NCBI GenBank assembly: GCA_025354885.1
Contig: JANXLY010000405.1
Span: forward strand, 1-38,398
Length of the DNA stretch: 38,398 bases
Direction of reading: 5' to 3'
Origin: Acidobacteriota bacterium
Lineage (GTDB): Bacteria > Acidobacteriota > Terriglobia > Bryobacterales > Bryobacteraceae
The translations under genes were made by a program, and so were the position numbers. Shown here piece by piece: positions 12,299 through 13,780 of this stretch. Below the pieces are notes generated by a model that saw nothing but the letters and a program-made list of their open reading frames with translations, was not told the DNA's origin and made no database searches. Within the stretch, counting starts at the first letter, position 1; the number at the start of each line of letters is the position of its first letter.

Positions 12299-12799
12299 CT
12301 ACTTCTTCACTGCCACTCGCTTGATCACACGCCGCCCAATTTGTTTTTTCGCACTTAGCTTCACGTCCGTCGCGTCCACCGGCTTCCGCTTGATGAGCGG
12401 CAGCGGAGGAGGATTGAATTGCATGCGCTGAGCCAGGTTCTGTACAAGTTCCCGCACATAAGGCCAAGCCTGAAACACCGGTGTGCTCGCCTCAAAATAA
12501 CGCAACTCTTGCTCATCCGGAGTCTTGCCGGTGAAACGATACTCCAATCGAAACACGATCAAGATATCAAAGATTTTCTTACCCGAATCGCTCAGGCTAA
12601 ACACCTGAGTCTTCACATCCGACCAGAGGGAATCGTCTTTGATTCTAGTCTCGGACACCGATGGCTCGTAGCGTAATTCATACGGCCCAAAATCCTGGTC
12701 TTCCTTATTGATCCGCTCGCATTCGCAGCTCATCAGCAGTACTTCGCTCAACTCGCATCGCAATACTAATGGCTCGTTCAATTTGACAACTTTAGTCAT
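12299..12799 (-). CDS. SecB-like chaperone of a toxin-antitoxin-chaperone (TAC) system
   Basis: A 166-residue SecB-like protein and third gene of the TAC cassette. The strongest match to SecB is residues 111-139: FQAWPYVRELVQNL followed by a Pro/Leu-rich run lies where SecB has its LFPYARE...L.PxNF helix. The beta-strand-rich N-terminal half and Lys/Arg-rich tail also fit. In the characterised M. tuberculosis HigBA-Rv1957 system, such a chaperone binds and protects the antitoxin; the same role is inferred here. It follows the antitoxin by 12 bases, with a GAGGGAG box before its ATG. It is not the housekeeping SecB: the sequence is divergent and the gene context is toxin-antitoxin. Confidence 0.75.
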   Translation of the reverse strand: MTKVVKLNEPLVLRCELSEVLLMSCECERINKEDQDFGPYELRYEPSVSETRIKDDSLWSDVKTQVFSLSDSGKKIFDILIVFRLEYRFTGKTPDEQELRYFEASTPVFQAWPYVRELVQNLAQRMQFNPPPLPLIKRKPVDATDVKLSAKKQIGRRVIKRVAVKK

Positions 12800-12811
12800 T
12801 GCTCTCCCTCA

Positions 12812-13330
12812 TCAACACGTTTCTGCGAAGTCGGGGTTGTAATAAAAAGGCGGCAACGGCTTGTACGAACTTCTTGTATCTTCGCCGTGTGAAAACTGCA
12901 AATACGGCTGGCTCCAAACGAGACGACGATCTGTTTCGTTCATCTCCTTCGCATGCCTTCTCGCGTATTCCGGATCTAGAAACAGCCTCAGCAGTTTGTC
13001 CATTGCCGCGTCTTGAATCTTTCCCAGTTCCCAGCGTTTGATGCTGGCGGATCCGGCTCCAGTCTTCATCGCCAATTCAGACTGGCTCCATCCCATTTCC
13101 CTACGCATGCGCTTGATTTCTTCGCTAGTCAACAAACCGTGCTTCTCGCGAAACTGATCGGCCAGCAGCCGCATGAAGGTCTGGACCTGACCTGCTCCAA
13201 TTGTTTTATAGCCACATTTCGGGCATACCAATGCCGGGCAATTAACGGAAAAGGTTTCCCCCTGGATCTCCCCCTCCAACTCGGCACTTTTCGTTTCCAG
13301 CTCAGCCTTTCGGCACTTGATGCATAGCAT
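12812..13330 (-). CDS. MqsA-type zinc/HTH antitoxin with C-terminal extension
   Basis: A 172-residue antitoxin. The N-terminal zinc module has Cys3, Cys6 (CIKC), Cys36 and Cys39 (CPKCGY), the same spacing as E. coli MqsA (3, 6, 37, 40). An XRE-type helix-turn-helix at about 68-115 (LTSEEIKRMRREMGWSQSEL, then ASIKRWELGK) would bind the operon's operator. After the HTH there is a 40-residue tail, rich in Trp, Tyr, Phe and Pro (WSQPYLQF, PLPPFYYNPDF), that E. coli MqsA lacks; it resembles the chaperone-addiction (ChAD) tails of TAC antitoxins. The ATG is one base after the toxin stop and has an AGGAG box nine bases upstream, so translation is coupled. Confidence 0.85.
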   Translation of the reverse strand: MLCIKCRKAELETKSAELEGEIQGETFSVNCPALVCPKCGYKTIGAGQVQTFMRLLADQFREKHGLLTSEEIKRMRREMGWSQSELAMKTGAGSASIKRWELGKIQDAAMDKLLRLFLDPEYARRHAKEMNETDRRLVWSQPYLQFSHGEDTRSSYKPLPPFYYNPDFAETC

Positions 13331-13331
13331 G

Positions 13332-13745
13332 TTAACTTCTCCTCTTCGGGGCAGACGGCCTGTCCACGTGCAAACTCACGATGGAAAGCCCAGGCCCGTT
13401 CTCGTTAGTCAGATCGACAAATTTCAAATACACTCGCCGCCCAAAGTGATCGGAATCCCAGCAAAATGCAAAGAGCTCTTTTTGTTCGATCCCCTCTTCG
13501 TAGGCTCTGAGGGGAGGATGCGAACCTGCATACTGCTTGCTGCGAATTTCCGCTAAAGCGGCAGCCAATCCAAGCTGAATATCTTCATCTCTAAACAGAT
13601 TCAGTTCTACGAGATCCGTGTAAACCTTATCCGGCCGCAGGAACGAATACTGCCTGTCAGCCACCGCCAATCTGGCGGCCGCCAACTTCCCGCTAATTTC
13701 CTTATCGGTCGGTCTCCACAGCCTCACTAGTGTAGACGGTATCAA
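13332..13745 (-). CDS. MqsR-like mRNA interferase toxin of the TAC system
   Basis: A 137-residue protein resembling MqsR, a RelE/YoeB-fold ribonuclease. The DLVELNLFRDEDIQLGLAAAL segment, the following SKQYAGSHPP (compare DFYKS of MqsR) and RVYLKFVDL (compare QVYLKITV, with the catalytic Tyr-Lys pair) align in order, ending in LSIVSLHVDRP. It is longer than E. coli MqsR (98 residues), chiefly at the N-terminus. Gene order toxin-antitoxin-chaperone, with one base between toxin and antitoxin, supports the call. No ATG exists near the 5' end: the start is TTG at 13745, lying within a palindrome, or GTG at 13727; neither has a ribosome binding site, so a leaderless message is likely. Confidence 0.72.
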   Translation of the reverse strand: MIPSTLVRLWRPTDKEISGKLAAARLAVADRQYSFLRPDKVYTDLVELNLFRDEDIQLGLAAALAEIRSKQYAGSHPPLRAYEEGIEQKELFAFCWDSDHFGRRVYLKFVDLTNENGPGLSIVSLHVDRPSAPKRRS

Positions 13746-13752
13746 ATGATAC
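13739..13752. promoter_or_regulatory. Candidate TAC operator palindrome
   Basis: GTATCA-AA-TGATAC is a perfect 6+6 inverted repeat covering the TTG start of the toxin. A TTGACG box on the minus strand lies 17 bases from TACCGT, a weak promoter fit that would place the palindrome between -35 and -10. An autorepressor site for the MqsA-like antitoxin is the natural reading (inference). Confidence 0.5.
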
Positions 13753-13780
13753 TAGTTTCGTCAATCAAAATTTAATTCTC

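Follow-up and report, generated by a model that had tools for sequence, protein, structure and literature searches.

Three closely spaced minus-strand genes of an acidobacterium raise the question of whether they make up a toxin-antitoxin-chaperone (TAC) operon, and of which class. They lie in a stretch of 38,398 nucleotides (contig JANXLY010000405.1 of assembly GCA_025354885.1), which is referred to as the window throughout. A preliminary description of this DNA had proposed an MqsRA-type TAC, and this reading has held: the antitoxin belongs to the MqsA family, the chaperone has the SecB fold and the best fold match of the toxin is MqsR. The module is very likely a type II toxin-antitoxin-chaperone operon of the MqsRA class (MqsRAC). 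It is supported by the gene order, the antitoxin family, the chaperone fold, the likely toxin fold, a conserved operator and a conserved triple of genes. Two of the features by which a TAC is recognised were found here, namely a SecB-like gene in one operon with a type II toxin-antitoxin (TA) pair and an antitoxin extended C-terminally past its family core.

Gene order, start codon and putative operator

The toxin gene comes first in the tandem, followed by the genes for the MqsA-type antitoxin and the SecB-like chaperone (Table 1). A gap of 1 base (13331) separates toxin and antitoxin, and 12 bases (12800-12811) separate antitoxin and chaperone, so that the tight packing described before was confirmed, whereas the toxin start given there was revised. 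At its full extent the toxin ORF runs over 13332-13745 on the minus strand, with 137 codons from a TTG at 13745. Because this TTG falls inside the perfect palindrome 13752-13739, the GTG at 13727 is most likely the start. In the copy of a congener (L057) a GTG also lies 11 nt downstream of the identical palindrome, as in the window.

Table 1. Features of the module and its flanks in the window.
Feature	Position	Strand	Remarks
Toxin gene, MqsR-like	13332..13727	-	131 codons from GTG 13727; fold match to E. coli MqsR; homologues beside MqsA-type antitoxins
Antitoxin gene, MqsA family	12812..13330	-	172 codons; Cys4 zinc domain, HTH and C-terminal tail of ~55 residues; TIGR03830, PF15731
SecB-like chaperone gene	12299..12799	-	166 codons; Rv1957 homology, SecB fold
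Palindrome GTATCA-TT-TGATAC (GTATCATTTGATAC)	13739..13752		perfect; putative MqsA operator
Possible promoter TTGACG-17-TACCGT	13736..13764	-	read by eye; overlaps operator
Hairpin, 19 pairs, 3-nt loop	12140..12180		possible transcription terminator; between chaperone gene and convergent helicase gene

The palindrome, GTATCA-WW-TGATAC in its general form, has one site in the 6.6-Mb genome, and its chance expectation in the window is 0.01 at up to 1 mismatch. It was found upstream of the toxin gene in all five loci of the toxin branch that were found. As the site is kept across two antitoxin architectures, described below, it is probably the sequence that the MqsA core binds in this branch.

A sigma-70 consensus scan reported neither promoter nor terminator, and the promoter is for this reason labelled as read by eye. 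The hairpin beyond the chaperone gene folds with -36.3 kcal/mol (z -11.6), has no T run and is unique in the genome. Its reading as a REP-type repeat was discarded, since the exact matches were its own two half-sites only and the near matches were about as many as in the control. GC3 of the three module genes is 0.58-0.62 against 0.61-0.69 for the neighbours, and this overlap with the low end of the neighbours makes composition uninformative on recent transfer.

The toxin

The toxin gave no match to Pfam up to an E-value of 10, nor to NCBIfam, PADLOC or the PDB sequences, and plain searches of plasmid, phage and viral-contig records also returned no match. A search of the window's genome with the MqsR model PF15723 found none, and the control genomes gave no match either. 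The toxin branch is too diverged for present family models to recognise.

When the moderate AlphaFold model of the toxin (pLDDT 63.5, built from 3 sequences) was compared by VIA-align, the top row was E. coli MqsR (3hi2_D; Z 6.8, rmsd 3.2, 88 of 91 residues aligned), which counts as support short of proof because a fold match with a Z under 8 may arise by chance. The next row stood at Z 4.7, and BrnT and RelE-like rows appeared at Z about 4. Foldseek with the same model returned no significant match. The preliminary description had called the 137-residue product MqsR-like and had staked this on an MqsR or RelE fold; the claim survives with E. coli MqsR as the best fold match, though on a model of this confidence and with plain sequence searches blank.

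A profile of five toxins gave a weak, collinear alignment with three MqsR sequences through YLK and SFK/SLH motifs (hhalign probability 34%, with E 4e-4 for a single comparison); the three are those of L015 and L018 and an approximate E. coli MqsR sequence. The YLKF and S-x-H motifs are invariant across the toxin branch. The toxicity of E. coli MqsR requires K56, Q68, Y81 and K96. In the weak profile alignment, Y81 corresponds to the invariant Tyr100 of the toxin, within the YLKF motif, and the K96 position corresponds to the invariant His120. Y81 is the only one of the four that is clearly kept, K56 and Q68 being without confident alignment. The toxin is probably a divergent MqsR, and it is likely to act as an RNase of the MqsR type.

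A sample of 396 genomes from the phylum contained the toxin in one other genome, and a wider genome collection adds a further locus, L011. In both of these (L011 and L012/L002) the partner of the toxin is an MqsA fused to Panacea (PF15731 + PF13274), and no SecB gene adjoins the pair.

The toxin could instead belong to another branch of the RelE superfamily (BECR), or have another fold altogether, under an MqsA-type antitoxin, and the module would then be a TAC whose toxin is not an MqsR. The missing Pfam, NCBIfam and PDB sequence matches and the BrnT and RelE-like rows of the fold list would fit this, as would the MqsA-type antitoxins of the phylum, which often stand behind small DUF4258-like genes instead, including that of one TAC with SecB (L036). 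We consider this unlikely, since MqsR exceeds the next row by 2 Z units and covers 88 of 91 residues, the profile alignment with MqsR is collinear through its motifs, and the published pairing of MqsR with MqsA-Panacea (PMC10440598) mirrors L011 and L012. A divergent MqsR is thus the preferred reading of the toxin.

Antitoxin and chaperone

By its sequence the antitoxin clearly falls in the MqsA family, with scores above cut-off for TIGR03830 (93.9 bits, cut-off 61.8, E 6.1e-27) and PF15731 (38.9 bits, cut-off 30, 1.2e-9), in agreement with the earlier reading of an MqsA-like antitoxin with a Cys4 zinc domain and an HTH. Its N-terminal zinc domain contains two C-x2-C pairs. Of its 172 residues the PF15731 match takes in none beyond residue 117, and the tail past this MqsA core holds nine aromatic residues and is a putative chaperone-addiction region. 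Three classical acidobacterial MqsA proteins of 132-133 aa (L015-L017) have no adjoining SecB gene. Nor does L018, which has an MqsA of 158 residues, so that a tail by itself does not prove a need for a chaperone. The antitoxin probably needs the SecB-like chaperone to fold.

The chaperone is clearly SecB-like by sequence and modelled fold, and is closest to Rv1957, the TAC chaperone of M. tuberculosis. It reached Rv1957 at 5.8e-5 with phmmer, and profiles of its acidobacterial relatives did so at 1.2e-10 and 3.1e-12. Its AlphaFold model (pLDDT 73.0) gave Z 15.1 against Rv1957 (5mtw; rmsd 2.3, 133 residues aligned) and 12.8 against E. coli SecB; rows that are not SecB-like start at Z 5. The SecB-like character claimed earlier for the 166-residue protein, for which a structural match to SecB had been named as decisive, was thus upheld. 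The chaperone has no match to the Pfam SecB model PF02556, which likewise misses the majority of acidobacterial TAC chaperones; 33 TAC chaperones have been reported to lie outside PF02556 (PMC4257090).

Viral relatives of the chaperone were not confirmed in a first scan and were found after the alignment had been re-ordered. Two IMG/VR viral contigs (L074 1746-3586 and L075 66-1890) encode a protein of ~220 residues ending in AA, a SecB-like protein and a protein of ~235 residues with no Pfam match. Their SecB-like protein matches the CmdC model weakly, and these three-gene sets are possibly a hitherto undescribed TAC.

The SecB-like protein might also serve general export in a host without a canonical SecB, with the TA pair working without it. 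Such a role is quite improbable here, even though a PF02556 search at E 0.001 detects no SecB in the genome, TAC chaperones have been considered for a dual role that includes export, and outside the proteobacteria most genomes with a TA-associated SecB have no solitary SecB (PMC4257090). The PF02556 search is weak evidence because it misses the window's own chaperone as well. Moreover, the chaperone is co-operonic with a tailed MqsA in the window and in L066 and absent beside the Panacea-type partners, and in most of the congeners searched no relative of it was detectable. The chaperone is therefore best read as the third component of the MqsRAC operon.

Relatives, proposed mechanism and published systems

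The survey of neighbouring genomes took in 41 close relatives. A congener (G400) carries a toxin of 65% identity behind the same palindrome, but at another site, which is close to a GH113-type gene. Neither antitoxin nor chaperone was found when the G400 genome was searched with both proteins; the contig ends inside the toxin gene. The conserved triple that had been sought in neighbouring genomes was recovered in diverged but complete form from a second genus within the family (G413, locus L066), as the toxin, an MqsA of 185 residues and a SecB-like protein of 180 residues. The locus is more than a chance arrangement, given the congener toxin, the L066 triple and the two other Acidobacteriota with the toxin and an MqsA-type antitoxin.

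In the window the module lies between a polysaccharide deacetylase gene and a UvrD/PD-(D/E)XK helicase gene. In the same interval of the congener G397 (L061 3417-4147) a MazE/AbrB-type antitoxin gene (PF04014) stands with an ORF whose product can be read as a PIN-domain toxin. As another TA-like pair occupies it there, the interval apparently accommodates differing TA modules and is possibly a hot spot of TA exchange. That the operon is what remains of a mobile TA module after decay or loss of function is hardly credible, for the patchy distribution and the G397 pair which might suggest it are set against three intact frames, tight spacing, a perfect operator and conserved toxin residues retained in the G400 copy.

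Other SecB-associated TA sets were observed in the phylum. L036 (G307:C4, about 804559-807942) is an acidobacterial TAC of a DUF4258 protein, a 227-residue MqsA-type antitoxin and a SecB-like protein (PF02556, 5.7e-12). HigBA-like pairs with a SecB-like third gene (L005, L006, L008, L009, L010, L065, L067 and L068) are spread through the Acidobacteriota, and most of their chaperones are missed by the Pfam SecB model. In L007 (G047:C6) a HicAB-like pair is followed by a SecB-like gene, possibly as a HicAB-type TAC.

For the MqsRAC operon of the window the following mechanism may be proposed. The first gene would encode an MqsR-like RNase that stops growth by cutting RNA, and the zinc domain of the MqsA-type antitoxin would bind and neutralise it. 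The HTH of the antitoxin would bind the GTATCA-WW-TGATAC operator and repress the operon. The antitoxin tail would be unstable alone and would recruit the SecB-like chaperone, which shields and folds it. If the chaperone were titrated away, for example by a phage capsid or another unfolded protein, the antitoxin would be degraded and the toxin freed. A role of the module in phage defence is plausible and is argued by analogy, as no phage or plasmid record carries the toxin.

A part in phage defence, with the chaperone as sensor, is now emerging for TAC systems. MqsRA has been listed among the TAC families, and the Vcho-TAC of V. cholerae RC385 was shown to work (Bordes 2016, PMC5105189). The MqsRAC of E. 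coli blocks phage T2 (Vassallo 2022, PMC9519451); the toxicity of its MqsR is relieved only when both MqsA and MqsC are present, and extra MqsC inhibits the defence (PMC9519451). The preliminary description had presented an MqsRA-type TAC as a combination far less studied than the HigBA-type TACs, which is overstated, since these two have been tested experimentally (PMC5105189, PMC9519451). Vcho-TAC and the E. coli MqsRAC being already described, the operon of the window is a divergent addition to the published MqsRA-type TACs. By description, E. coli C496_10 MqsRAC and Vcho-TAC are likewise single operons that encode an MqsR-type toxin, a tailed MqsA-type antitoxin and a SecB-like chaperone, and the tail of Vcho-MqsA holds a putative ChAD at 136-176 (PMC5105189). 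In contrast to both, the toxin of the window is missed by MqsR family models and the host phylum is Acidobacteriota. No TAC model of PADLOC matches the module.

HigB1-HigA1-Rv1957 of M. tuberculosis resembles the module in the chaperone fold and in the SecB-like gene that comes after the gene of a C-terminally tailed antitoxin, whereas its toxin and antitoxin are of the HigBA family and those of the window of MqsRA. CmdTAC of E. coli ECOR22 also pairs a SecB-like chaperone with an antitoxin. There the chaperone controls the antitoxin and senses the phage capsid, the trigger being the capsid protein that pulls the chaperone away (PMC11618068). Unlike the window, CmdTAC has an ADP-ribosyltransferase toxin and an unrelated antitoxin.

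In B. fungorum an MqsA-Panacea protein neutralises MqsR through its zinc domain, and Panacea has been proposed as a sensor (PMC10440598). This MqsR:PanA system (MqsA zinc domain-HTH-Panacea) has the same architecture as the toxin partners in L011 and L012, but where PanA carries Panacea the window has a short tail and a SecB-like chaperone. What appears to be new here is an unrecognised toxin branch, overlooked by present family models, and the exchange of antitoxin tails, a putative chaperone-addiction tail in one case and Panacea in the other, while toxin and operator are conserved; this exchange is apparently without published description. A further reading, which we hold only tentatively, is that this branch forms a distinct RNase family, in which an invariant His replaces MqsR Lys96, and that its antitoxin retains the MqsA core and operator but exchanges its sensing tail, SecB-dependent or Panacea by lineage. 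If this were true, Panacea and ChAD/SecB could stand in for each other as trigger modules of a single toxin. With its one operator and either a tail plus chaperone or a Panacea-tailed antitoxin, the toxin branch provides a natural comparison, and a branch that occurs with either tail gives a direct handle on the sensor proposal made for Panacea (PMC10440598).
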